Source of the DNA: Nitrospira sp. CG24C
Lineage (GTDB): Bacteria > Nitrospirota > Nitrospiria > Nitrospirales > Nitrospiraceae
Assembly (NCBI GenBank): GCA_002869885.2
Contig: NEWR02000013.1
Span: 58,220-99,789 of the forward strand
Length of the DNA stretch: 41,570 bases
Direction: 5' to 3'
Position numbers and translations under genes: made by a program. Below the pieces are notes generated by a model. The model saw nothing but the letters and a program-made list of their open reading frames with translations, was not told the DNA's origin and did not search any database. Positions 17,649-41,570 of this stretch are shown piece after piece; position 1 is the first letter of the stretch, and the number at the start of each line of letters is the position of its first letter.

Positions 17649-17908
17649 AATTAGACATTCTCGTTTCTGCCCCCTGTTCAGGACCACCAGCGAGGGTCTG
17701 CGCTTATGCGGTTTTTGCAGCCCGATCTGCACCGAAACGCTCCTATCGCAACTGTTGTTCATTTCTTTTTCACTCACCATCAGAATTTTTCCGCACAACG
17801 CAGTGGTATTAGCGCGATTGTTCCCCCTGCATATCGACTCTTCGATGCTCACGATGATCCGCGCCCGACCGCAATACATCGCCATCTTGCATGGCAAGGA
17901 GCTGCACC

Positions 17909-20900
17909 ATGAGTAGTCCCGGCCATCTGTCCGAATTGGACTTGCTGCGTGGCCAGGTCGCCGACCTGTCGCGCCAGCTGGCGGAGCGGGACCGTTCGAT
18001 GCAGGATCTCCGTGAACAGTCCCAACGCTTGCGAACCATCGTCGAAGGCACAGCGTCTGAGACAGGGGATGAGTTCTTCGCTTCACTCGTCACACGCTTG
18101 ACCTCGACGCTGCATATGCAATATGCGGTGATCAGTGAAGTGCTTGAAGTCCCCTTCAGGAAGATCCGCACTCTCGCGGTCTCGGACGGAGACACCCTCA
18201 TCGACAACTTCGAATATGATCTTGAACATACGCCTTGTGCCACCGCACTGACACAGACCTTTGCCTGCTTCAACCGGGATCTCCAGGCCACGTTTCCTCA
18301 GTTCCAGCGTCTAGTAGACCTTGGAGCCGAAAGCTATTGCGCTGTGCCGGTCTGGACGAAAGGCGGAGCAGTCAGTGGATTGCTTGTCGTGATGGATACG
18401 AAGCCTCTGGAAAACAGCGACGATCTGCAATCTCTGTTAGGAGTCTTTGCCCCGCGCATTGCGGCGGAGTTCGAACGGAGGCGAGCTGAGCAGGAACGTA
18501 CCCAAGCTCTGGCCGATTTACACAATGTCATTGAAGCGATCCCCGACATCGTGTTCGCTCTGAACACCCAAGGCAACATGGTGAAATGGAATCGGCGTGT
18601 CGTGGATGTCACGGGATACAGCCCTGAGGAATTGCTGCACATGCCTGCCTTGGCCTTCGTGCCCACGGAAGAACAGACTCATACCGCCACTGCCATTCAG
18701 CGGGCCTTCACGGAAGGATACGCCGAGCTTGAAGGCCATCTGTTGACCAAGGATCACCGCCTCATTCCCTATCACTGGACCGGCGCCCTGCTTAAGAATT
18801 CTCACGGCGAGCCCGTCGGCATCACCGGAATCGGACGAGACGTGTCTGACAAAAAGCGGGCGGAAGAGGTGTTACGGAAGAGCGAACAGCGTTTCGCGCT
18901 GGCTGTAGAGGGATCCACCGATATCCTCTGGGATGCCCAGCGGCTGCCAGGCGAGCCCTGGTATGCACCACAGACAGCGATCTGGTGGTCGCCACGAGTC
19001 CGTGAATTGCTGGGACTACAAGAATCCGAATCGTTCGAGACGTTCGAGCAATGGGCCGCCCGGCTCCATCCCGATGACAAGGATCGCGTGTTCGGCCAAT
19101 TGGCTGCACACATGGAGCATCGAGTTCCGTACGATGTCGAGTACCGGCTGCGCACCAATGCAGACGGCTATTGCTGGATTCACGGGCGCGGGCAGGCACT
19201 GTGGGGTGAGCAGGGAGAACCTCGTCGCATGTCCGGCTCATGCCAAGACATCACCGATCGCAAGCGGGCGGAAGAGGCCCTGCGCGAGAAACAGCGTCAG
19301 CTCACAGAAGCTCAACGTTTGGCAAGGATAGGGAGTTGGCATTGGACCGTCGAGACTGACACCGTTACCTGGTCGGATGAGCTCTACGCAATTTTTGGCA
19401 GAGATCCCAAGCAGCCCGCGGTCAGCTATAAAGATCACCCCAAGATCTACACGGCGGACAGTTATGCTCGACTCGATAAAGCCGTTACCCATGCGTTGGC
19501 GACAGGGGCACGCTACGAACTTGAGCTTGAATTCATTCACACTGATGAGACCCATCGCTGGGGTGTTGCCCGGGGAGAGCCGGTGGAGGGAGGAGGTGGC
19601 CGTATTCTTGGCCTGCATGGAACCTTCCAGGACATTACCGAACGCAAGCAGGTCGAGCAAGCCTTGCACGCCAGCGAGGAGCGATTCACCCTCGCCGTCC
19701 ACGGTTCGAACACCGGGATTTGGGACTGGGATCTCCGGACCGGCAAGACCTACTTCTCACCGCTCTGGAAAAGTATGTTGGGATATGAAGCGCACGAACT
19801 CCGAGGAGAACTCTTTGAGTGGGAGGAGCGCCTCCATCCCGATGACCGAAAGCGGTCATCGGCAACAGTACGGGCATACCTGGAAGGGACAACTCCACAA
19901 TATGAACTTGAACACCGTCTGCGTCACAAGGATGGCAGTTACCGGTGGATCCTTACTCGGGGGGTCTCCATTTCCGATGCCGAAGGAAAGCCCTATCGCA
20001 TGGCCGGCTCCCACATCGACATCACGGAACAGAAGCAGACCCAGGAGGCCCTGATCCAGAGTGAGCGCCAGCTGCGAACCGTCCTCGATGCCCTTCCCGT
20101 GGGTGTCTGGTTTACCGATCGAGCTGGCAAGCCGCTCCTCGCAAACCCGGTTGCGAAACAGATTTGGTCGAACATCAAACAGATTGGGCTGCAGACTGAG
20201 AACCCCCAGGCTGGTTGGTGGGAGACCATCGGACCAGCCAACGAACCCCATCGCTGGGCCTTGAGCCATGTGCTCACGACAGGTGTTCCTTCGCAGTACG
20301 AAACCTTCGACTTTGAATGTCTCGATGGGACGAAGAAGACCATTCGTAATTCGACCGTTCCGGTCAAGAATGAGGCAGGCGTGATCCTCGGCGCTATTGT
20401 GCTGAACGAAGACATTACCACGTTGCGGCAGGCCCAGGCAGCGCTTCAGTTGACTCAGTTCTCCGTCGACCATGCGGTTGAAGGATTCCTCTGGATCGGG
20501 TCTGACGCCAGGATTTTTCATGTCAACGATTCGATATGCAGGATGTTGGAATATACCTGGGAAGAACTCACGACCATGACCCTGCACGACATCGACCCGA
20601 ATCTTACTTCGGAGGTCTGGCCTGCACATTGGGAAGAGTTGAAGGAGAAAGGATCCTTGACGTTCGAATCGAAATATTGGTCGAGGACCGGCCGCGTGCT
20701 GGACATGGAGGTCACAGTCAATTATCTGCAGTACGAGGGAAAAGAATACAATTGCGCCATCATGCGGGATATCGGAGAGCGCAAGCGGGCGGAGGTGTCA
20801 TTGCGCCAGAGCGAAGAACGCTATCGGTCCTTGGTGGACAACGCTCCGATCGGCATCTTCCTGAACGAGGCGGGACGGTTCGTCTATGCCAATCGGGAGA

Positions 20901-22726
20901 TGTTAAGAATTCTCAAAGCGCCAAACGCCGAGCAGCTGATCGGCACGCCGGTCCTGGACCGGATCGCCCCTGAATTTCACACCGTGGCGAAAGACCGCAT
21001 CCGCGAGTTGACTATGGGGCAACCAGTTCTGTCATTGGATGAGAAGTTTGTAAGGCTCGACGGGTCACAGGTCGACGTGGCCGTTTCGGCAATCCCCACC
21101 TCCGTGGGCGGCAACCCCGTGATGCAAGTGCTGGCGCTTGATATCACCGAACGCAAGCAGCTCGCCGAGCGGGAAGTCTTCCACATCAGGCAACTGAAGA
21201 AACTTTATGAGCTCAGCATGACGTTGTCGGGCGATCCTGGCGTCGTCCTTGAGCATGCCGTGCGCATCATTGGTGAGCTATTCAAGGTGCAGGTGGTCTG
21301 TTTATCAGAGATCGTCGGCCAGGAGTTATATTTCAAATCCGTGTACATCAACGGCCAGACTGTTACGGATGCAGGCCATTGTTCCCTGGCGATCACCCCC
21401 TGCGCCATGGTCGAACAGACCAAGGATTTACGGATATTCGACCGCGTCATGGAGCGCTTCCCACAGGCGTCGTTTCTCCGGGACCATCAGGCTGTCTCTT
21501 ACTGCGGATTTCCTGCTCTGGACAACGAAGGGCGTGTCGTTGGGGTGACCTGCCTGCTGGATAACAAGCCGCATGAGTTCAGCAAGGAAGAGCAAGATCT
21601 CTTGCGTATTTTCGGGCAGCGCATTGCTACAGAAATCGCACGGAGCCGCCACACCGCCGAGCAGAAACGGGCGGAGAAAGAGCTGCGGAAATCCCATGCG
21701 TTTATCCGCCAGATTATCGACACGCATCCGAACTTCATCTTTGCAAAAGATCGTGAGGGTCGATTCACCTTGGTCAACAAGGCGGTCGCCGATGTCTACG
21801 GGACGACGGTGGAAAACCTGATTGGCAAGACCGATGCCGACTTCAATCCCAACCAGGAGGAGGTGGCGTCCTTCAGTCAGCAGGATCTGGCGGTGATGGA
21901 TACCCTTCACGAACTCTTCCTTCCTGAAGAAGTCATCACGGGCTTTGATGGGAGAACCCGCTGGCTTCAAACGGTCAAAAGGCCGATTCTGGACGACGAG
22001 GGTTGCGCGACAATGGTGCTGGGCTCGTCCACCGATATCACCGAGCGCAAGCGCATGGAAGAGACGCTGCGTCAGCGGGAGCGTGCCTTGCGGGCGGCTA
22101 TAGAGGAACGCGAGCGGATCAGCCAAGACCTGCATGATGGCATCTTACAGTCGCTCTTTGCCGTGGGCCTCGCCCTCGAATCGGCCCAATTGACGATGCC
22201 CCCAAGGAACCTCAAGGTGTCCAGAACATCACTCAATCAGGCCATTGATCAGTTGAACGATGTCATGCGCGAGATCCGGAACTTCATCGCGGGGCTGGGC
22301 TCGGACCTGCTCCAGGGGAAGAGTCTTCCGGCAGCACTGAAGCAGATGCTGGCATCACTGACGGAGCACCAGGCGATGCGCGTGCGCCTCGCGGTCGAGG
22401 ACCGTGCCGTGAAGGCCCTATCGACTGAACAGTCCCTGCACCTGGTCCGTGTCGTCCAGGAAGCGGTGAGTAATTGTATCCGGCACGGCCATGCGCAAGA
22501 GGCTAGGGTATCGCTCAAGATGCTGAAGCGGGGTGTCCGGTTGAGCGTTCGCGATAACGGCCGTGGATTCAACCAGGCCACTGCCAAGATGACTGGGCAT
22601 GGGTTGACAAATATGGCCGCCCGTGCCCAGAAGATCGGAGGACGATTCACCATCTTGTCGAAGGTGAATGAGGGAACCAGCATCGTACTCGATTTACCGA
22701 AAGAGGCTGCCGATGTCTCCCGCTAA
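17909..22726 (+). CDS. Soluble multi-PAS/GAF sensor histidine kinase (NarX/DegS type)
   Basis: 1605 residues from ATG 17909, preceded by AAGGAG; an in-frame start 18 nt upstream is less likely. No membrane segment is visible. Domains in order: short coiled coil, GAF (about 54-190), seven PAS domains (about 200-315, 325-450, 470-580, 590-710, 715-840, 845-960, 965-1085), most ending in a DITERK-like PAC linker, a second GAF (about 1095-1245), an eighth PAS (1260-1380), HisKA_3 with ERISQDLHDG (phospho-acceptor His1409), and HATPase_c with AVSNCIRHG and DNGRGF. Such kinases sense several cytoplasmic cues and pass phosphate to NarL-type regulators. The regulator gene overlaps its 3' end by 14 nt, so the partner is clear. 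The ligand is unknown. Confidence 0.95.
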   Translation: MSSPGHLSELDLLRGQVADLSRQLAERDRSMQDLREQSQRLRTIVEGTASETGDEFFASLVTRLTSTLHMQYAVISEVLEVPFRKIRTLAVSDGDTLIDNFEYDLEHTPCATALTQTFACFNRDLQATFPQFQRLVDLGAESYCAVPVWTKGGAVSGLLVVMDTKPLENSDDLQSLLGVFAPRIAAEFERRRAEQERTQALADLHNVIEAIPDIVFALNTQGNMVKWNRRVVDVTGYSPEELLHMPALAFVPTEEQTHTATAIQRAFTEGYAELEGHLLTKDHRLIPYHWTGALLKNSHGEPVGITGIGRDVSDKKRAEEVLRKSEQRFALAVEGSTDILWDAQRLPGEPWYAPQTAIWWSPRVRELLGLQESESFETFEQWAARLHPDDKDRVFGQLAAHMEHRVPYDVEYRLRTNADGYCWIHGRGQALWGEQGEPRRMSGSCQDITDRKRAEEALREKQRQLTEAQRLARIGSWHWTVETDTVTWSDELYAIFGRDPKQPAVSYKDHPKIYTADSYARLDKAVTHALATGARYELELEFIHTDETHRWGVARGEPVEGGGGRILGLHGTFQDITERKQVEQALHASEERFTLAVHGSNTGIWDWDLRTGKTYFSPLWKSMLGYEAHELRGELFEWEERLHPDDRKRSSATVRAYLEGTTPQYELEHRLRHKDGSYRWILTRGVSISDAEGKPYRMAGSHIDITEQKQTQEALIQSERQLRTVLDALPVGVWFTDRAGKPLLANPVAKQIWSNIKQIGLQTENPQAGWWETIGPANEPHRWALSHVLTTGVPSQYETFDFECLDGTKKTIRNSTVPVKNEAGVILGAIVLNEDITTLRQAQAALQLTQFSVDHAVEGFLWIGSDARIFHVNDSICRMLEYTWEELTTMTLHDIDPNLTSEVWPAHWEELKEKGSLTFESKYWSRTGRVLDMEVTVNYLQYEGKEYNCAIMRDIGERKRAEVSLRQSEERYRSLVDNAPIGIFLNEAGRFVYANREMLRILKAPNAEQLIGTPVLDRIAPEFHTVAKDRIRELTMGQPVLSLDEKFVRLDGSQVDVAVSAIPTSVGGNPVMQVLALDITERKQLAEREVFHIRQLKKLYELSMTLSGDPGVVLEHAVRIIGELFKVQVVCLSEIVGQELYFKSVYINGQTVTDAGHCSLAITPCAMVEQTKDLRIFDRVMERFPQASFLRDHQAVSYCGFPALDNEGRVVGVTCLLDNKPHEFSKEEQDLLRIFGQRIATEIARSRHTAEQKRAEKELRKSHAFIRQIIDTHPNFIFAKDREGRFTLVNKAVADVYGTTVENLIGKTDADFNPNQEEVASFSQQDLAVMDTLHELFLPEEVITGFDGRTRWLQTVKRPILDDEGCATMVLGSSTDITERKRMEETLRQRERALRAAIEERERISQDLHDGILQSLFAVGLALESAQLTMPPRNLKVSRTSLNQAIDQLNDVMREIRNFIAGLGSDLLQGKSLPAALKQMLASLTEHQAMRVRLAVEDRAVKALSTEQSLHLVRVVQEAVSNCIRHGHAQEARVSLKMLKRGVRLSVRDNGRGFNQATAKMTGHGLTNMAARAQKIGGRFTILSKVNEGTSIVLDLPKEAADVSR

Positions 22727-23369
22727 GAGGCCGATTCGCCTGCTCTTGGTCGACGATCACCAGGTGGTCCTTGTCGGTCTGCGAACGGTCTTACACAATA
22801 GAAGACAGGGCATTACCGTCGTCGGCGAGGCAGGATCCAGAGCCGATGCGGTGCGGGCAGCCAAGCGACTTAAACCGGACATCATTCTGATGGATGTCCG
22901 ACTCCCGGATGGTTCCGGGGTTGAAGCCTGTCGTGATATTCTCGCCAAACATCCCTTGATGCGAGTGATCTTTCTCACATCGTTTGCCGATGATGAGTTC
23001 GCCCTGGCAGCCGTGCTGGCCGGCGCGAAGGGCTATGTCCTCAAGAATATCGACTCCGACTTGCTCGTTCAATCGATTCGTGCCGTTTTCAACGGTCAAT
23101 CGCTGCTCAGTCCGGCCCTCACCCAACGGGCGCAGATTCGGGCGAAAGCCAGACCGGCTCAAGCAGGCCCGGTGCGAAAACAATCCCTTGCCCCTCAGGA
23201 AGAGCGAGTCCTGGCGCTGGTGGCGGAAGGTTTGACCAACAAGGAAATTGGAGCTGCGCTGCAACTCAGCGATAAGACAGTCAAAAACTATCTCTCTAAC
23301 ATGTTTCAGAAACTGCACATCACGCGACGCGCGCAGGCCGCCACTTTCTTCGTGAAGCGTCAGCCTTGA
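22713..23369 (+). CDS. NarL/LuxR-family response regulator, partner of the multi-PAS kinase
   Basis: 218 residues from ATG 22713 (MSPAKRPIRLLLVDDHQVV), overlapping the kinase by 14 nt; the upstream in-frame start at 22668 would give a non-homologous tail. The receiver domain has the acidic pair VDDH, phospho-acceptor Asp in IILMDVRLPDGSG, Thr in VIFLTSFADD and Lys in GYVLKNI. The C-terminal LuxR helix-turn-helix is PQEERVLALVAEGLTNKEIG followed by LSDKTVKNYLSNMFQKL. It should bind DNA as a dimer when phosphorylated. Its targets cannot be told from the sequence. No autoregulatory site was recognised. Confidence 0.95.
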   Translation: MSPAKRPIRLLLVDDHQVVLVGLRTVLHNRRQGITVVGEAGSRADAVRAAKRLKPDIILMDVRLPDGSGVEACRDILAKHPLMRVIFLTSFADDEFALAAVLAGAKGYVLKNIDSDLLVQSIRAVFNGQSLLSPALTQRAQIRAKARPAQAGPVRKQSLAPQEERVLALVAEGLTNKEIGAALQLSDKTVKNYLSNMFQKLHITRRAQAATFFVKRQP

Positions 23370-31862: not shown

Positions 31863-33353
31863 GTGCCTGATCTCGATTTTGTTCAGCAGGATTTTCAGCG
31901 TCGCCTTATGGAAATTCCTCCACAGGGGACGGGGCTGTCAGTCGACGTCTATTCTCCCGATCTGTTTGAGCTGGTGAACAAACTCAGGGAGCGAGGCCTC
32001 AAGCCGGACTATCTGGAAGTCTTTAAGGCGACGACGACCGCACTGACAACGGTTCGACAGACTATGCCGGATATACCGCTGGCGTACCACGGGGAAGGCC
32101 TGTGGATCACCCAGCCGGATGTGCAAACGTCTCCGTTCTTTCAGCAGGACGTCGGCGAGATGGTCACGCAACTCAACAGCCTACAGAGCCTCTGGCTGAA
32201 TCATGAATGCGCGATGAAGCAGATGGCGGGCTATTCGTTCGGCACCTATGTTCCTCCTCTCTATACGCCGCTGAGCGCAGAAGTGGTGGCCGACAATATC
32301 GCAACGGTGCAGCAGGCGATGGATCGGCAGGGTCGTCGAGCGAATGGAACTGCGCCGCTCTTTCTCTTGGAGATGCCGCCGCTCACATATTTTTCCGCAG
32401 GCACGATACCGATTCCTCACTTTTTTCGGCTCATCACCGAGTTGGTACCCTGCGGTCTTGTGTTGGATATCGGGCACCTCTGGACGGTCTATCGCTATAC
32501 CGCTGCCTGTCGACGGACATCGCTTGAACGATTCGTCGGAGAATTCCTGGACGAATTTCCTCTGGAGCGGGTCGTAGAAATCCATATAGCGGGGTTGTCC
32601 TGCCATGAGTCGGTTGGTGGGCCACAGGGGGGAGGGGGTCTTCCTGAGTGGATCGACGCCCATGCAGCCCCGATTCCATCGATCCTCTACACCATGCTTG
32701 AACAGGTTCTGGCGCATCCGAATCTCTGTAGCCTCCGGGCTGTGGCGCTTGAAGTGGACACCAAACCGATCGAGATGATTGTGGAGGAGTATGCAGAGGC
32801 CGTTCGGCGTTTCGCCATCCTCGTTCAACAGACAATGGCCAAAGGCGCGGCGATAGAACAGCCGGTGAAATTGACGTCTCGTCCAATCTCAGCCCAGGAA
32901 CCGGTGTGCCAGTCCGATCGACAGCGGTTGCGCGACGACTATGCGCGTTACGCGCAAATCATTTCCGGGCAAGGTCCTATCGTTGGCCCGGAGTGGCAGG
33001 AAACGGCTGCGGAAGCGACGGGTCTAGCACAGTACTGCACGTCCTATGTGCCGCACGAGATCCTCCATTGGGGAGGAGACCTTGGAGAGATGTTCCCACA
33101 GACTTGTCGGGCCCTAGCGGAGCAGGGCATCTGCCTGACAGCGTTTGTACCCTTCTGGTTTCGGTCGCCGCGTCCGCTCACGCAGTCGTATGATTTTTTC
33201 CTCCTCAAGATCGAGCGGTTTCTCGAATTCGTGACGGAATGCGCGCCGGATGCGCTGGTTTGCGTACAAGAGGAATGCGACGGCTTACGCCTGGCCTATG
33301 CGCAGGCGAATGAAGTAGGGAACCCGATGATGGAGATGGAGCGAACCAAATGA
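31863..33353 (+). CDS. DUF692-family (MbnB/TglH-like) protein with long C-terminal extension
   Basis: 496 residues, GTG start. The first ~300 residues look like a DUF692 TIM barrel: IPLAYHGEGLWITQPD, LFLLEMPPL, GLVLDIGHLW, VVEIHIAGLSCHES and WIDAHAAPIPSILYTMLEQV. In MbnB and TglH, DUF692 enzymes use two or three iron ions to oxidise cysteine residues of peptides; the His/Asp/Glu pattern here fits metal binding. Those systems have a partner protein and a Cys-containing precursor peptide, neither of which is evident here. The last ~170 residues have no recognised domain. It overlaps dus by 4 nt (ATGA). Family probable, substrate unknown. Confidence 0.8.
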   Translation: MPDLDFVQQDFQRRLMEIPPQGTGLSVDVYSPDLFELVNKLRERGLKPDYLEVFKATTTALTTVRQTMPDIPLAYHGEGLWITQPDVQTSPFFQQDVGEMVTQLNSLQSLWLNHECAMKQMAGYSFGTYVPPLYTPLSAEVVADNIATVQQAMDRQGRRANGTAPLFLLEMPPLTYFSAGTIPIPHFFRLITELVPCGLVLDIGHLWTVYRYTAACRRTSLERFVGEFLDEFPLERVVEIHIAGLSCHESVGGPQGGGGLPEWIDAHAAPIPSILYTMLEQVLAHPNLCSLRAVALEVDTKPIEMIVEEYAEAVRRFAILVQQTMAKGAAIEQPVKLTSRPISAQEPVCQSDRQRLRDDYARYAQIISGQGPIVGPEWQETAAEATGLAQYCTSYVPHEILHWGGDLGEMFPQTCRALAEQGICLTAFVPFWFRSPRPLTQSYDFFLLKIERFLEFVTECAPDALVCVQEECDGLRLAYAQANEVGNPMMEMERTK

Positions 33354-35918: not shown

Positions 35919-37478
35919 TTATGAACCCCGCTCACTCACGTGCGGTTTGTGGCTTTGCGCCCACTGGAGCTGAAACTGCTCATACGACATGGACATCTTC
36001 TGTTGCATCGCTGTTTCAAGAGATTGTCCGGTCATGAGCATTTTCATCAGTTGACGAACAGTAGACAGGCTATACCGATCGATGAGGTGCTGAGTGGCAA
36101 CGTTTGCCGAGAGGTAAGCGGTCGATACTGATGTTGCGGGAAGCTGAGCCCACGATCCGTGAAGCGAGGTCAGTGGTATGAGGGGAAGGCTCTTTTGTCG
36201 GGACTCTTCCATGTCAGGCCAGGGGTCTTCCGTCAGATGGATGGCCAGACCTTCCACGAGCCATCTTGGAGGAGGTGCGCTTCCATTCTTGGCCTGTTCA
36301 TGAAAGAGCGCATGGACGAACTGATGACGGGCCACGCGGCTGAATAATGCAAGATCGTCGAGCGCGCCTTGAGTGGGGAGATTGATCGATCCTGAAGCGT
36401 GATCGAACAATGTATCGGCCCAATCGGGAACTCCCGCCGGACCGGAAAATTTCTGACCTGTGTGGAGGACAACCTTGATAGGTCCGGCAGGCACCTGTCC
36501 GAACTTCGGGGGAATCTCCTCATAGGCGTATTCAAGCATGGCCCGGATGCGCAGCCACGTCGCTTGATCGTCCGGCCCATCGAATTGAACGACGAAATGA
36601 GCAGTGTCGCGCGGAACAAACGGCCTCGTCGGCTGTTCTTCCTGAGTAGCGGTGGAAGGGGCCGGTGGATGGGCGGATGGCATTGAGGGCGCAGGTGTAA
36701 GGCCTTGACGAGGCTCCGGAACCGGTCTGGCGACTATGTCTGCTGTTGTGGATGGGGCAGTGAGTGCCATGTCCGTCTTTGCAACGAGCTTATTTCGATA
36801 GGATTGGAGATGGGGATCATATTGGGTTTGTGGCTGCGCGAGATTGAGATGGGCCATCGCCGAGGTCTTGTCGCCTTTCTCCAATAGGAGTTCGGCGAGC
36901 GCAAGATGCGGGAATGGGTCGGCGGGATTCAGCCGAATCACCCTGTTAAGGAATTGAAAGGTCATCGCGGGGTCACGAAGTTCCCAGTACGCTTGCGTCA
37001 GGTTCATGGACGCAAGCGGATTGTTGGGGTCGGACGCGACGGCTTTCTTGAAGGCTTTGACAGAGAGTGCGCTCCCGCCGAACTTTTCCTGTTGCACACC
37101 AAGATTGTTCCAGAGCGCTGCGATGTACCGTTTGGTCTTGGGCTTATCCAGCCGTTTGTGAGAGAGGGCTATCAACCGGCGTTCTGCTTCCTTGTAGTTT
37201 CCCTTGTCCACTTCATCGCGAATAAGCTCGAGCGCATCGGTGGGTGCTTGCCCTGGATCGATCAGTCGAGTTTGCGGAACGTCCCAGGGCGGATATTCTT
37301 GTGTTCCCGGCAACGTGAAGCTGGGGGTTGGCTGCACCGGAGGAGACTCCGAGGGCTGCCGTGATGCTGGTCCAGGAGTCAAATAGGTGGGTTTTAGCCA
37401 CCCCTGGTAGCCGACAAAGAGGGCAAGTCCGAGGGCAATGAGTTTGAGTGTGGATGAGATGTCGCGTCGATATTGCAC
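35919..37478 (-). CDS. TPR protein with gluzincin-like domain whose catalytic Glu is Gln
   Basis: 519 residues, GTG start with AAGGGAAGG upstream. One N-terminal membrane anchor (LKLIALGLALFVGYQGWL), a Pro-rich stretch, TPRs (about 75-215, for example AALWNNLGVQQEKFGGSALS), a second Pro-rich linker, then a peptidase-MA-like domain. Its zinc-site motif reads HQFVH (385-389) where active enzymes have HExxH; the codon is CAG. The downstream WLVEGLAIHL (Glu409) is kept. The protein is likely a catalytically dead, substrate- or cofactor-binding relative. It is the last gene of the cytochrome operon, 40 nt after the 24-haem cytochrome, so it may help assemble or hold it. Confidence 0.85.
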   Translation of the reverse strand: MQYRRDISSTLKLIALGLALFVGYQGWLKPTYLTPGPASRQPSESPPVQPTPSFTLPGTQEYPPWDVPQTRLIDPGQAPTDALELIRDEVDKGNYKEAERRLIALSHKRLDKPKTKRYIAALWNNLGVQQEKFGGSALSVKAFKKAVASDPNNPLASMNLTQAYWELRDPAMTFQFLNRVIRLNPADPFPHLALAELLLEKGDKTSAMAHLNLAQPQTQYDPHLQSYRNKLVAKTDMALTAPSTTADIVARPVPEPRQGLTPAPSMPSAHPPAPSTATQEEQPTRPFVPRDTAHFVVQFDGPDDQATWLRIRAMLEYAYEEIPPKFGQVPAGPIKVVLHTGQKFSGPAGVPDWADTLFDHASGSINLPTQGALDDLALFSRVARHQFVHALFHEQAKNGSAPPPRWLVEGLAIHLTEDPWPDMEESRQKSLPLIPLTSLHGSWAQLPATSVSTAYLSANVATQHLIDRYSLSTVRQLMKMLMTGQSLETAMQQKMSMSYEQFQLQWAQSHKPHVSERGS

Positions 37479-37518
37479 AGCACCTTCCCTTTGGAGATAT
37501 TAACCAACAGGCCTGAAG

Positions 37519-39309
37519 CTAACGACCGCGAAAGATGCCGCTGCCTCGTTTGACCGTCTTCCACAGGGTGGTTTCATGACACCGATCACATTGGGGGCCG
37601 AAACTTCCTTCATGCTTGTCATCCTTCTTGTGGCAACTGACACAAGTGGAGGATGTTTCGACCTTCTTGTCCATGTGTGCACGGTGGCAGGCGTAACAAT
37701 CGAGCCCCTTATGGCCGCCATCGAGCTTGAATCGAGTCCGCGAATCGTGATCGAAGTCCCAGAGTTTCCAGTCTCGTAGGCTGTGGCAGTCCTGGCATTC
37801 CGTACCCAACCGGCGCAGATGCTTATCGTCCTTCTTGTGGCAAGCGTAGCAGGCCGTGGGAGTCTTGTCCTGATACAGCAGTCCTCTGTGGCAACTCTCG
37901 CAAGTGGTGGCTCGGTGTTTCCCTCGTAGCGGATAGGCCGTATCGTGATCGTGCTCGAAGAGGGGGACTTTCCAATCCCGTTCGGTATGGCAGCGTTCAC
38001 ACTTCTCGGTAAAGTGGCCCTTATGCTTGTCGTCCTTTTTGTGGCAGGCGTTGCAGTCGGCCGGAGTCTTGTCCTTGTATAGATGTCCTGTATGACAGGA
38101 CTCGCACTTTGCTGCCCGATGCTTCCCCCGCAGTGGATAGGCCGTATCGTGATCGTGCTCGAAGAGGAGGGCTTTCCAATCCCGTTCGGTATGGCAGCGC
38201 TCGCACTTCTCGGTAAAGTGGCCCTTATGCTTGTCGTCCTTCTTGTGGCAGGCGTTGCAGTCGGCGGGAGTCTTGTCTTTATACAAGTGCCCTTTATGGC
38301 AGGAGTCGCACTTCGTCGTGATATGCCGCCCCCGCAGCGGGTACTGGGAATGCAAGTCGTGGTCGAAGGTGATGGTTTTCCAGTCACCCGCTCCATGGCA
38401 CGTCTCGCATTTCTCTCCATATGCCCCTTTGTGCTTGTCGTCTTTCTTGTGGCAGGAATAACAATCTGTCGGTGCGTCTTTAAAGGCCGGCGTCAGATGG
38501 CATTTCGTACATTCCACCTTGGCGTGCTTCCCCATCAAAGGGAAGCGCGACTTGTTGTGGTCGAACGGCGATTTTTTCCACGACTGGTCGTTGTGGCATT
38601 CTTCGCATTTCGTGCCCTCCTGCCCTTTATGCTTGTCGTCCTTTTTATGGCAGGAGTAGCAATCCATCGGGGTTTCTTTATAGCGATCGTTTTCGTGGCA
38701 GCCCTTGCAGGGGACTTCGACATGCTTGTTGCGGAGCTTATATCGTGTCTTGTCATGGTCGAACCGGAACTCCTTCCAATTCCGATCCGTATGACAGTCG
38801 GCGCAGGCGCTTCCCAGTTTGCCTTTATGCTTATCGTCTTTCTTGTGGCAGCTATAACAATCGGAGGGCGCCTCACGATACTTTGTCTTGGGTTTGTGGC
38901 AGGCCTTGCACTCGATCTTCTTCGTGTCGGCATGGGCGCCCTGGAGCGGGAAGTCCGTCCGCTTATGGTCGAAGGTCAGTTCTGTGATCGGCGCAATGTT
39001 CTCCGTTCTGCCCTTGTGATCCGTGTGGCATTCCTTGCATTCCCGTTGCTCTTTGAAACGCCCGTGCGATCCCTGCTTCTGCGCGATGTCCGTACGGATG
39101 TCTTTGTGACAATCCTGGCAGAGGGTATTCTGCGCCGCCTTGTCGAATCGCTTGTGACACTTCGTACAGTCGTCTTCCCATTTCGCATGGCCTTCGATCA
39201 CCTGCCCAGGCATTAATGCTGACTCGACGTTGTCTGCCCAGGCCGGCGCGGCCATGAGCATCAAGGCGCCGAGCAGACCAATGGGCAGGTAGTAGGATGA
39301 GGCGAGCAC
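37519..39309 (-). CDS. 24-haem c-type cytochrome built of 68-residue tri-haem repeats
   Basis: 596 residues, GTG start preceded by GAGG. The signal peptide ends in APAWA (cleavage after residue 25). I count 24 CxxCH haem sites. After an N-terminal variant unit there are six units of ~68 residues, then a partial one. Each full unit reads CxxCHKKDDKHKG, CxxCH, WK, FDHD or FEHD, GKH, CxxCH. Every unit therefore carries three haem sites plus three conserved extra His, enough for bis-His ligation. Two neighbouring units are almost identical (DNA offset 204 bp), showing recent duplication. It should be an exported linear electron conduit, fed by the cytochrome b-like protein encoded 12 nt upstream. 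The final acceptor or donor is unknown. Confidence 0.93.
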   Translation of the reverse strand: MLASSYYLPIGLLGALMLMAAPAWADNVESALMPGQVIEGHAKWEDDCTKCHKRFDKAAQNTLCQDCHKDIRTDIAQKQGSHGRFKEQRECKECHTDHKGRTENIAPITELTFDHKRTDFPLQGAHADTKKIECKACHKPKTKYREAPSDCYSCHKKDDKHKGKLGSACADCHTDRNWKEFRFDHDKTRYKLRNKHVEVPCKGCHENDRYKETPMDCYSCHKKDDKHKGQEGTKCEECHNDQSWKKSPFDHNKSRFPLMGKHAKVECTKCHLTPAFKDAPTDCYSCHKKDDKHKGAYGEKCETCHGAGDWKTITFDHDLHSQYPLRGRHITTKCDSCHKGHLYKDKTPADCNACHKKDDKHKGHFTEKCERCHTERDWKALLFEHDHDTAYPLRGKHRAAKCESCHTGHLYKDKTPADCNACHKKDDKHKGHFTEKCERCHTERDWKVPLFEHDHDTAYPLRGKHRATTCESCHRGLLYQDKTPTACYACHKKDDKHLRRLGTECQDCHSLRDWKLWDFDHDSRTRFKLDGGHKGLDCYACHRAHMDKKVETSSTCVSCHKKDDKHEGSFGPQCDRCHETTLWKTVKRGSGIFRGR

Positions 39310-39321
39310 AGTTGATAGGCC

Positions 39322-40248
39322 TCAGTACATGTAGGCGGCCACGATGTGAAAAATCGCGCAGGCAGCCAGAACGTAGATCAATGGCACATGGAGCACGTGC
39401 CACAACGAGAAGAGGCGTTCGAAGGTACTAAACTGGGCGACGCGCTGGCACTCTCTCAAATACGATGACGCCAACTGGATCGCTTCCGATGCCCCCCCAC
39501 GGAACTCCGGATGCCGTTCGGCCTTCAGAATTTTTCGCAGCTCGCGCCTGCAGCGAAAGCCCAAGACAATCCGTTTTAACCCGATCGTCAGGGGACTGAA
39601 GAGGTGTGAGGTAAAGGAACGATCGAGTTGTTTCGAGTCGCGTTCGAATGATTGGAGCCATTGCTCGACACGAGGCGCAAAGTGCAGTCTGGATTTCGCA
39701 TCGTTGGAAAGGCCTGCAAGCTCTTCCTGTGCTTTTTCCAGTGTGGCGCGACGGCCGTAGAGACCATAGTGAATCTTGGTGTAGATAAAGCGACCGATAA
39801 TGCCGCTGATGACCACCCCCAGCATGCTGAAAAGCGCGATGGTCGCGTTTAGGGATCTCAGATGAAAGGTTGAGTGAAATAGAATGAGTGTGGGGCCGAC
39901 GATCCCCATGATCATGTGGATACGAAACCAGTATTTTAGTGCCCCCCAGCGACTCATGAAACCCACGTGCTTGCGCAGTGGATAGGCCAGCATCAAGAGC
40001 AGCGTCACGGAGCCGACGACTCCCAGGTACCAGCCAAAGTCCGAGCGTGGAGTGTAATACTTGCCGGTCGCAACCGTATAGGCCACCCATATCGATAAGC
40101 CCACGAGCAGGGAGACCAGCAGTCGTCCTGGCAGAGAGGGAGAGTCGTCCGTCACGTCTTCCTTCGGTCTTGAGCGGCTCCGTGTTGCCGGGCGAGATGC
40201 CTCGTTTGTTCGTTCCCGGACATGTTGGAGAGGTTCAGCGATAGCCAT
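39322..40248 (-). CDS. Cytochrome b-like membrane electron-transfer protein
   Basis: 308 residues, ATG start with AGGA upstream. The polar N-terminus (1-40) is followed by membrane segments at about 41-60, 71-91, 109-130, 135-156 and 281-307. His111, His125 and His129 fall in or near the third, and His284, His287 and His301 in or near the last. They are suitable haem b ligands near both membrane faces. The hydrophilic loop 157-280 is basic and helical. The layout suggests a di-haem quinol-cytochrome c oxidoreductase or ferric-reductase-like subunit; no flavin or NAD(P) domain is present. It is first in the operon with the 24-haem cytochrome and probably passes electrons across the membrane to or from it. 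Confidence 0.8.
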   Translation of the reverse strand: MAIAEPLQHVRERTNEASRPATRSRSRPKEDVTDDSPSLPGRLLVSLLVGLSIWVAYTVATGKYYTPRSDFGWYLGVVGSVTLLLMLAYPLRKHVGFMSRWGALKYWFRIHMIMGIVGPTLILFHSTFHLRSLNATIALFSMLGVVISGIIGRFIYTKIHYGLYGRRATLEKAQEELAGLSNDAKSRLHFAPRVEQWLQSFERDSKQLDRSFTSHLFSPLTIGLKRIVLGFRCRRELRKILKAERHPEFRGGASEAIQLASSYLRECQRVAQFSTFERLFSLWHVLHVPLIYVLAACAIFHIVAAYMY

Positions 40249-40390
40249 ACTCGTTCATCCTATGCTCAGAGAAAGGTTGGTTTGTTGATTTGGTTGTAGT
40301 CGATGCGCCGAAGGTCTGGATTGTATAGAGCAAATTCTGCGCCTGTTTCTCGATGCACATCCTTGCGTGGGATCGGACATTTCTGAGCCA

Positions 40391-40406
40391 TGGGAAAACG
40401 ATCCCT
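40391..40406. promoter_or_regulatory. Operator-like dyad, near-match to TGGG-N8-CCCA
   Basis: TGGGAAAACGATCCCT: one mismatch in the last base of the pattern. Centre 72 bp from the next dyad. It is the copy nearest to the cytochrome b-like gene. Confidence 0.45.
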
Positions 40407-40462
40407 CTGCAGAGAGTGTAGGCGCTGTCCTGCATTCTGTACAGGAAGCTCTCTGCGTCTAT

Positions 40463-40478
40463 TGGGTAGATCTACCCA
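40463..40478. promoter_or_regulatory. Operator-like perfect palindrome TGGG-N8-CCCA
   Basis: TGGGTAGATCTACCCA is a 16-bp palindrome with no mismatch and no loop. Centre 98 bp from the following dyad. Confidence 0.6.
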
Positions 40479-40560
40479 TGCAGAACCTCAGCTTCGTATG
40501 GAAATCACAAGCTTGCGATGTTTTTCCTGCAAAGGGTATGTCCCTTGCTCTACCCCTGCT

Positions 40561-40576
40561 TGGGATTATGTTCCCA
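40561..40576. promoter_or_regulatory. Operator-like dyad TGGG-N8-CCCA
   Basis: TGGGATTATGTTCCCA, with TGGGA/TCCCA arms. Its centre is exactly 50 bp from the last dyad, about five helical turns, so both face the same side of the DNA. Confidence 0.6.
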
Positions 40577-40609
40577 CGATTCTTTCTACTTGGGAGTCGC
40601 GTCGAGACG

Positions 40610-40627
40610 TTGGGAATAATATCCCAA
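40610..40627. promoter_or_regulatory. Operator-like dyad TTGGGA-N6-TCCCAA
   Basis: TTGGGAATAATATCCCAA, the longest arms of the set (6+6). It lies 86 bp before the start of the second multihaem cytochrome gene, in a position suited to control its promoter. Confidence 0.65.
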
Positions 40628-40712
40628 CTTTAAAATTGAATACTCAGTGCAGTGGAATCGAGGGGCAATATTGTTGGCGCAAGCGACCGATGTGCTCAGT
40701 GGCGGATACAAA

Positions 40713-41570
40713 ATGACACAATCGAATAGCTGGACAGGACGCCGGTTCTTTGCCTGGGCAATTGTTACTGGACTTCTGGCGGTATGCAGCTTGGCCTTGT
40801 TGATGCCGGATACCGCTTTTGCCCAGGGGAGTATCCGCACAGATATTGAAATCGATCACAGCAGCACTGGCTTCCCGCTCAGCGGCGGCCATGCGCAGGT
40901 CGTGTGTGAGCGGTGCCACTTGCAGGGCATTTTTCGAGGAACGCCGACGCAGTGCATGCAATGCCACTCACCAGGCGGACGAGTCGTCTCCACCTTTAAG
41001 CCGATGAACCACCTGCCGACCATGGTTAATTGCAGCAGCTGCCATCGGACGACAAATTGGACCCCCGCGTTCTTTACCCATAACGGTGTTGCTCCTGGAA
41101 CCTGCTCCAAATGCCATAATCAATCGACCGCGGCAGGCAAGTCTGCGAGTCATATTCCGACGACCATGAGCTGCGACAGTTGCCACCGGACGGTTGGCTG
41201 GACTGGTGCGGCCTTCAAGCATACGGGGGTTGGGCCAGGTACTTGTGCAACTTGCCACAACGGTATCCAGGCTCCGGGGAAGTCGGCCGGGCACGTGTCT
41301 ACAGCTGCTTCGTGCGATTCCTGCCATCGAATGGGCGCGGCGAATTGGCTGCTTGTGTCCAACGGATATGATCACACGGGGATCACGACGGGGTGCGCGA
41401 CCTGCCATAACGGAACGACAGCGCGGGGCAAGGCAACGACACACGTCCCGACGACGGCGGCCTGCGAGACGTGCCATCGCTCCACGACGACGTTTGTGGG
41501 GACCGCATTCAACCACACAGGGATCACGACGGGCTGCGCGACGTGCCATAACGGAACGACAGCGCGGGGC
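40713..41570 (+). CDS. Multihaem c-type cytochrome with 47-residue di-haem repeats, C-terminus outside the window
   Basis: 286 codons are seen and the frame is open at the edge. The signal peptide FFAWAIVTGLLAVCSLALLM ends in TAFA (cleavage after about residue 37). Ten CxxCH sites are present, in the order CERCH, CMQCH, CSSCH, CSKCH, CDSCH, CATCH, CDSCH, CATCH, CETCH, CATCH. Repeats follow the pattern FxHTG, CxxCHNG, AxGK, HxPTT, CxxCH. The last two have become nearly identical in DNA with a 141-bp (47-codon) offset, so the array may continue for many units. Each unit has two haem sites and two further conserved His. Probably an exported or surface electron-transfer protein, divergent from the 24-haem cytochrome operon. 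Confidence 0.92.
   Translation, partial: MTQSNSWTGRRFFAWAIVTGLLAVCSLALLMPDTAFAQGSIRTDIEIDHSSTGFPLSGGHAQVVCERCHLQGIFRGTPTQCMQCHSPGGRVVSTFKPMNHLPTMVNCSSCHRTTNWTPAFFTHNGVAPGTCSKCHNQSTAAGKSASHIPTTMSCDSCHRTVGWTGAAFKHTGVGPGTCATCHNGIQAPGKSAGHVSTAASCDSCHRMGAANWLLVSNGYDHTGITTGCATCHNGTTARGKATTHVPTTAACETCHRSTTTFVGTAFNHTGITTGCATCHNGTTARG
41380..41570 (+). repeat. 141-bp tandem repeat inside the cytochrome gene
   Basis: GGATCACGACGGGGTGCGCG at 41380 recurs at 41521 as GGATCACGACGGGCTGCGCG, and the following CATAACGGAACGACAGCGCG is identical in both. The period is 47 codons with two haem sites. The copy continues to the window edge. Confidence 0.85.

Follow-up and report, generated by a model that had tools for sequence, protein, structure and literature searches.

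We analysed a stretch of 41,570 nucleotides of Nitrospira sp. CG24C (hereafter the window; contig NEWR02000013.1, G000:C5:58220-99789), taken from a genome of 3.0 Mb that is 94% complete. The end of the window encodes a membrane protein, two exported multihaem cytochromes, termed MHC1 and MHC2, and a tetratricopeptide repeat (TPR) protein. The gene content, motifs, repeats, synteny and co-inheritance that we observed suggest that this locus probably comprises one half of a porin-cytochrome conduit of the PCC3 type and the beginning of its second half. PCC3 was proposed in 2017 and reported in Alpha-, Beta- and Gammaproteobacteria; it consists of a porin, an extracellular multihaem protein rich in threonine, serine, alanine and glycine (T/S/A/G), a periplasmic multihaem protein and an inner-membrane protein of about 300 amino acids, whose hallmark is two WX3HX13H motifs and one SGXXG motif (PMC5566968). 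Our comparison draws on published descriptions (PMC5566968, PMC10734462, PMC8788666, PMC12016527, PMC12442390); it rests on gene set and motifs, and Slit_1446-1449 of Sideroxydans lithotrophicus ES-1 was compared by description. The likeness comprises the four gene types including a porin gene in the cluster, the length and motifs of the inner-membrane protein, the few amino acids per haem, the low-complexity repeats and the T/S/A/G content of MHC2. The original prediction, made from the letters of the window alone, had seen in these genes the parts of a trans-envelope electron conduit. Gene set and synteny uphold this, and the set turns out to have a published counterpart in PCC3 (He et al., 2017).

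The features of the locus are as follows.

39322..40248, minus strand: inner-membrane protein of the PCC3 type, 308 amino acids, predicted from motifs
37519..39309, minus strand: MHC1, exported cytochrome with 24 CXXCH motifs, 596 amino acids, recognised by CXXCH count and repeats
35919..37478, minus strand: TPR protein with a C-terminal MA-clan-like domain, 519 amino acids, recognised by TPR models and HQFVH...WLVEG
40713..41570, plus strand: MHC2, 5' part of a T/S/A/G-rich repeat cytochrome, 10 CXXCH motifs, recognised by CXXCH and repeats
40249..40712, no strand: intergenic region separating the two divergent units, with site scans at chance level

The three open reading frames (ORFs) of the minus-strand unit, 39322-40248, 37519-39309 and 35919-37478, are separated by 12 nt and then by 40 nt, the packed operon that the original prediction had described. 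The ORF of MHC2 extends at most over 40647-41570 on the plus strand, with a probable ATG at 40713, and its reading frame enters a gap of 100 N (contig position 99790-99889). Scans for promoters and terminators yielded chance levels only, and no promoter-like site is listed in the intergenic region. The ratio of nonsynonymous to synonymous substitution rates (dN/dS) lies at 0.08-0.29 in six comparisons of genes, each made against a single related genome, which indicates that the genes of the locus are under purifying selection.

The paired histidines previously noted in the membrane protein were found (H111/H125 and H287/H301). They belong to the motifs W107-x3-H111-x13-H125 and W283-x3-H287-x13-H301, which are accompanied by SGIIG at 148-152. 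Two W-x3-H-x13-H motifs and one SGxxG are present in all 26 homologues examined, the window protein included. Moreover, these motifs also occur in membrane proteins of Emticicia and Sphingobium, while a distant protein of Methylophaga has one W-x3-H-x13-H motif and a distant protein of Variovorax has none. The membrane protein likely carries two haems b, as judged from its sequence. It matches no Pfam family above the cut-off, and searches of PDB sequences with it or with MHC1 returned nothing useful. A crude hydropathy count gives three to five transmembrane helices in most homologues and two in one, and the structural model has long helices at 39-60, 71-88, 105-126, 133-162 and 253-307; the PCC3 protein is described as having five transmembrane helices with the motifs on the third, fourth and fifth (PMC5566968). 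In a tree of the membrane protein, in which long branches limit the deep order, the 12 Nitrospira copies form one supported group, outside of which lie betaproteobacterial copies and a group from other Nitrospirota (f14) that also includes one gammaproteobacterial copy.

MHC1 contains 24 CXXCH motifs, compared with a mean of 0.34 and a maximum of 3 in 1000 shuffles of its own residues, and the part of MHC2 up to the window end contains 10, against a mean of 0.10 and a maximum of 2. The predicted secreted 24-haem protein and the opposing exported cytochrome with at least 10 haems are thus both borne out by motif count. MHC1 is built of c7/c3-like triheme repeats, six of which are recovered as regular units by pattern search; it has 24.8 amino acids per haem and 32 further histidines, and the MHC2 part has 28.6 amino acids per haem. 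The published range for PCC3 is 22-39 amino acids per haem, with a median of 21 haems for the periplasmic protein (PMC5566968). T, S, A and G make up 45% of the MHC2 part and 48% of its uncut homologue in G020, and 22-24% of the Nitrospira MHC1 copies measured. At least one further histidine per CXXCH is available in 20 of 20 proteins checked, so that bis-histidine ligation would be possible.

We also compared CXXCH counts among homologues. In 35 uncut copies of MHC1 (the window, 20 from Nitrospira and 14 others) the number of CXXCH motifs is 24 in 23 copies, 21 in seven and 27 in five; left out of this count are a cut copy in L112 with 56 motifs, a second copy with 16 in L058 and a 30-CXXCH paralogue. 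All these counts are multiples of three, which fits the loss or gain of a triheme unit. For MHC2, the 15 uncut copies from Nitrospira span 14 to 43 motifs and those of other Nitrospirota 11 to 47, two smaller neighbours in L103 with 7 and 8 being excluded. A nearly fixed MHC1 and a freely varying MHC2 would be expected if one spans a gap of fixed width and the other is free; by analogy MHC1 may be a periplasmic wire and MHC2 may be extracellular. Two relatives of MHC1 stand apart. The 30-CXXCH paralogue (L046:8034-10358, minus strand, on G000:C22, 56% identity) is flanked by DUF5666 and DUF6502 genes and has no membrane-protein partner in the adjoining genes, and the cytochrome in L112:1-4139 (G089), which is cut by the locus end and has at least 56 CXXCH motifs, adjoins a distant homologue of the membrane protein.

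The original prediction had recognised no porin partner, and indeed none lies in the window. In all 15 Nitrospira relatives whose contig continues, however, the gene following MHC2 encodes a TPR/beta-barrel protein; the missing porin is therefore best read as an assembly artefact. On another contig of the same genome (C22), a second 100-N gap is followed by repeats of the same kind with 10 CXXCH motifs, a 766-amino acid protein, a CcmI-type protein, an iron-sulphur (Fe-S)/FAD oxidoreductase and a Sel1 protein, families that were assigned from G020 homologues and from the genome's own proteins. The membrane protein, the 766-amino acid protein and the oxidoreductase each occur once in the genome at the thresholds used. 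The model of a homologue of the 766-amino acid protein shows TPRs and 21 strands after residue 290, Foldseek retrieves FadL, porins and the TPR-barrel protein BcsC, and the C-terminus has an aromatic-rich stretch resembling a barrel signal, which together lend moderate support to a predicted barrel fold. The Nitrospira barrel also has an N-terminal beta domain besides its TPRs. Homologues with 24-30% identity lie in the same gene set of other Nitrospirota, and hhalign connects the Nitrospira barrel to an f14 barrel (E 2.3e-46) and to a barrel from the same class (1.2e-15). No NCBIfam model matches the barrel of this genome at 1e-5, the G020 barrel has only TPR/YfiO matches in Pfam up to 0.1, and a PDB sequence search returned only TPR matches and marginal chance hits.

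The gene set is conserved in relatives. The search for the membrane protein found 22 loci, 18 of the Nitrospira type (54-85% identity) and four distant ones (35-43%) from beta- or gammaproteobacteria and one Chitinophaga bin. In 21 Nitrospira loci besides the window, the membrane protein is present in 21, an adjoining MHC1 in 20, the TPR protein in 19, a divergent MHC2 in 20 and the barrel in 15, and the loci that lack a component end at a contig end before reaching that gene. All four core genes occur together in 14 of these 21 loci, the remaining seven being cut at a contig end, in three of four f14 loci, the fourth being cut, and in all six same-class loci opened, out of nine same-class genomes with a match. 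Of the remaining distant Nitrospirota, one locus (L112, f21) was opened besides the four of f14. Orthologues are thus co-located across Nitrospira, f14 and same-class loci, the opposite of the separation that the original prediction had named as refuting it, and the core set is found in three different gene orders. In a sample of 395 Nitrospirota the profile of the membrane protein matches 79 genomes; 33 matches cover at least 220 of the 306 profile positions, one of them with an internal stop, and the rest are partial. A tblastn search of plasmids gave nine distant records, of which four (Emticicia, Sphingobium, Methylophaga and Variovorax) were examined. In Sphingobium the membrane protein is accompanied by two proteins of 10 CXXCH motifs each; the records of Methylophaga and Variovorax, with 7-CXXCH proteins, do not fit.

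Of the 32 genus genomes compared, 13 have the membrane protein, 16 the barrel and 17 the oxidoreductase. The barrel is present in 13 of 13 genomes that have the membrane protein, relatedness being ignored. Of the 19 genomes that are at least 90% complete, nine have the barrel; three of these nine (G008, G009, G018) have no ammonia monooxygenase (AMO), and three of the 19 have AMO and no barrel. Over the 32 genomes, with relatedness and incompleteness ignored, barrel and AMO show no association (8/8/4/12, p = 0.27). Barrel and AMO thus each occur without the other, and the conduit set is common in the genus without being universal or linked to ammonia oxidation.

The Fe-S/FAD oxidoreductase, the TPR/zinc-site protein and the haem-maturation genes that are adjacent in some genomes lie outside the published four-gene definition of PCC3. 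The oxidoreductase carries a single N-terminal hydrophobic segment with basic residues behind it, two three-cysteine Fe-S motifs, the first of which has a fourth cysteine in four of 12 sequences, and a YpdA/thioredoxin reductase-like FAD domain without a conserved CxxC; its six invariant cysteines all lie in the Fe-S motifs. In L045:13169-14482 (plus strand) and its homologues, an AGELGG...QG segment at residues ~124-155 precedes GxGxxG, as if the domain were permuted, and resembles the C-terminal FAD motif of thioredoxin reductases. Within the genus, again ignoring relatedness, the oxidoreductase is found in 16 of 16 barrel genomes (one as a fragment) and in one of 16 without the barrel. Both genes share a contig within ~7 kb in 13 of 16 cases and are on different contigs in three. 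The fragment is a 184-residue C-terminal remnant directly after the barrel gene in G043:C34:86984-89798, pointing to either a deletion or a fault in the assembly. Outside the genus, the oxidoreductase adjoins the membrane protein and MHC1 in eight of eight beta, gamma (including the Chitinophaga-labelled bin) and f14 loci, and it is absent from the one f21 locus opened. On the Emticicia plasmid it has 47% identity and adjoins the membrane protein, and in Sphingobium a Pyr_redox-cNMP-Fer4 protein takes its place. In some relatives the barrel is followed by genes of the CcmA, CcmE, CcmF, CcmG/DsbE and CcmI types, in others by CcmI only. For PCC4 and related clusters, the presence of Fe-S proteins or of other redox proteins has been noted (PMC5566968).

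The TPR protein is matched by several Pfam TPR models above the cut-off, and Peptidase_MA_2 scores 16.7 bits, under its cut-off of 32.4 bits. The window copy reads HQFVH...WLVEG, in which the presumed zinc ligands are kept and the catalytic glutamate is replaced by glutamine, and an active MA-clan (gluzincin) peptidase was rejected for this copy on the HExxH motif. The dead gluzincin originally proposed holds for the window and only in part for the family: of the 20 Nitrospira copies, counting that of the window, half read HExxH and half HQxxH (10 each), and both histidines and the distal glutamate are kept in all 20. Among 12 Nitrospira rows of the membrane-protein tree the glutamine copies form two separated groups, the window clade and L058/L061/L062, and for this reason the glutamate was probably lost twice by parsimony. 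A dN/dS of 0.24 in one pair of the window clade indicates continuing purifying selection. We read the protein as having a predicted zinc-binding structural role.

Compared with known systems, the locus is closest to PCC3. The two clusters of Sideroxydans ES-1 (Slit_0867-0870 and Slit_1446-1449), as described, have comparable counts (17/21 and 24/28 CXXCH), the periplasmic counts given for Gallionellaceae are 21, 24 and 27, as in the uncut MHC1 copies, and the f14 order of membrane protein, MHC1, MHC2 and barrel is that described for Slit_1446-1449. The Nitrospira set differs in being arranged in two divergent units and in having the TPR/pseudo-peptidase and the oxidoreductase. It shares with MtrCAB, MtoAB and PioAB a periplasmic wire, a barrel and an outer cytochrome, and the G020 MHC2 gives a weak match to the solved MtrC (E 8.5e-5), ranked in the same PDB search below an implausible match to cystathionine beta-synthase. 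As the original prediction had held, however, it is not of the MtrCAB type: the decahem_SO model scores 18.5 bits on MHC1 and 42.3 bits on the MHC2 part (cut-off 192.2), there is no DmsE/MtrA-type decahaem above the cut-off and no MtrB-type match, and the inner-membrane protein is another one, CymA being a tetrahaem c-type protein. The c7 nanowire model TIGR04257 also stays below its cut-off. Two H-x13-H pairs on two helices (a comparison also drawn in PMC5566968) and the presence in the set of a flavoprotein of cytoplasmic NAD(P)H type recall ferric reductase/NOX domain systems (PF01794), but here the flavoprotein is separate and of the thioredoxin-reductase type with Fe-S motifs, and PF01794 does not match the membrane protein up to E 0.1. 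Within the phylum, Ca. Manganitrophus already has porin-cytochrome complexes, which differ in being described as porin-dodecahaem complexes, with PCC_1 confined to that family (PMC9040806). Beside the homologous genes, L065:1737-9438 contains a cluster of 11-haem, NHL, 701-amino acid, NHL and 4-haem proteins, and L068:253-8099, whose bin is labelled Chitinophaga and looks mis-binned, has similar gene sizes including an 11-CXXCH protein (families were tested in L065 only). The 11- and 4-haem proteins of L065 recall the Uet complex described for cathode-oxidising Tenderiales (PMC10734462); such a cluster was not seen in the Nitrospira loci, and the 701-amino acid protein is not detectably related to the barrel. 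In open-licence PMC texts we found no report of PCC3 in Nitrospira or, among the 20 of 27 papers listed, in Nitrospirota, although earlier reports may exist, and nothing on extracellular electrons in clade B comammox or on a 24-haem Nitrospira cytochrome.

In the mechanism that we propose, in which the loading with haem, the location of the proteins, their assembly into a complex and the flow of electrons are all predicted from the genes, a cytoplasmic redox partner (quinol and/or the membrane-anchored Fe-S/FAD oxidoreductase) would exchange electrons with the inner-membrane protein, whose two stacked haems b would pass them to the 24-haem wire, whose length hardly varies. This wire would cross the periplasm and lead via the TPR/beta-barrel protein of the outer membrane to the variable-length repeat cytochrome outside, with the TPR/pseudo-peptidase probably acting as a periplasmic scaffold or assembly factor. 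Supply from the quinone pool, as originally envisaged, is kept as one route; given the conserved oxidoreductase, a cytoplasmic partner at the level of NAD(P)H or ferredoxin may act as well or instead. That the conduit is wired, in a NOX-like manner, to such an Fe-S flavoprotein and not only to quinone is a tentative proposal. We lean slightly towards outward flow, because the membrane potential favours passage from cytoplasm to periplasm and because the recurrent redox enzyme is a cytoplasmic NAD(P)H-type flavoprotein.

Several observations weigh against a PCC3-type conduit or its parts. The models of the membrane protein (pLDDT 59) and of the barrel (pLDDT 52, query TM-scores of at most 0.22 among the 50 hits listed) are weak, the profile of the membrane protein matches no cytochrome b among solved structures, and the barrel gene is not on the window's contig. 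In the f21 locus L112 the only components seen within 14 kb were the membrane protein and an MHC1-like protein, and Emticicia combines the membrane protein and the oxidoreductase with proteins of 23 and 40 CXXCH motifs but has no recognised barrel; its MHC1-like 23-CXXCH protein, counted separately, departs from the multiple-of-three pattern. The oxidoreductase occurs in none of six same-class loci and hence does not count as a core component; in one member of the genus it is present although the barrel is missing. Moreover, the function of PCC3 members is described as putative so far, none having been tested (PMC12442390). In ES-1 the expression of both PCC3 clusters goes down on Fe(II) (PMC8788666), and Slit_1448, the extracellular cytochrome, has a score of 0 in each of the eight proteome columns shown, so these transcript and protein data do not support an Fe(II) role of PCC3 there. 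Finally, L065, L067 and L068 yielded no homologous barrel. This would also fit a periplasm-confined electron store or distributor, a capacitor that never crosses the outer membrane, as would the almost constant adjacency of MHC1 and membrane protein (20 of 21, the other being cut) and the 30-haem paralogue without such a partner; the conservation of barrel and MHC2 alongside in three separate lineages makes this improbable.

The Ccm-type genes after the barrel and the resemblance of the oxidoreductase to YpdA/thioredoxin reductase could mean that the locus serves cytochrome c maturation, with oxidoreductase and TPR protein as reductant and scaffold and the multihaem proteins as clients. This is quite improbable, as the oxidoreductase has no conserved redox CxxC and in L065 and L068 stands with the membrane protein and MHC1 where no ccm gene was recognised nearby. 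A sub-case of the conduit itself is the same wire run inward, with quinone as acceptor and Fe(II), Mn(II) or a partner cell as donor, which we consider possible and on balance unlikely. Isolates among the relatives bear the names RSF and Rifle, which we take to refer to sand filters and an aquifer. Inward electron transfer to the cytoplasmic side runs against the membrane potential, and nothing metal-specific turned up, though no search was aimed at such features. Inward flow is the hypothesis of He et al. for PCC3 (PMC5566968), and Mn oxidation by Nitrospira has been raised on the basis of MnxG and Cyc2 (PMC12070406); the ES-1 response to Fe(II) speaks against inward flow.

Elsewhere in the window, 31863-33353 (plus strand) encodes a protein with an MbnB/TglH/ChrH-type domain (PF05114) for modification of ribosomally synthesised and post-translationally modified peptides, adjoined by a gene that by eye looks like a tRNA-dihydrouridine synthase, and 17891-23369 (plus strand) encodes a 1611-amino acid histidine kinase with many PAS domains and a GAF domain, with a response regulator of the LuxR type after it.

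The genome that carries the candidate PCC3-type conduit encodes AmoA. Any two of the genus's 12 AmoA sequences, of which two are partial, share at least 81% identity, and those of G014 (Rifle_cladeB) and G019 (CG24E) are among them, the latter classed as clade B in a review (PMC6311188); the host is therefore probably a clade B ammonia oxidiser. The conduit set is found in canonical Nitrospira members and in clade B ammonia oxidisers. In the near relatives G005 and G046 (AmoA 98% identical), AMO lies ~32-45 kb from the conduit genes on one contig, an anecdotal observation.

A PCC3-type conduit in these bacteria would extend PCC3 beyond the Proteobacteria for which it has been described, and its mostly 24-haem inner wire, varying outer wire and recurrent Fe-S flavoprotein allow specific predictions to be drawn from the PCC3 model. 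If direct wiring to the flavoprotein were true, some complete nitrifiers would be electroactive with the respiratory chain bypassed, and the same oxidoreductase-cytochrome b pairing would operate in PCC3-like sets of Nitrospirota, Proteobacteria and, in Emticicia, Bacteroidota. Nitrospira rank among the major nitrifying bacteria, and their respiration is usually described as using soluble acceptors. A wire conserved in part of the genus would allow them to exchange electrons with minerals, electrodes or other cells.

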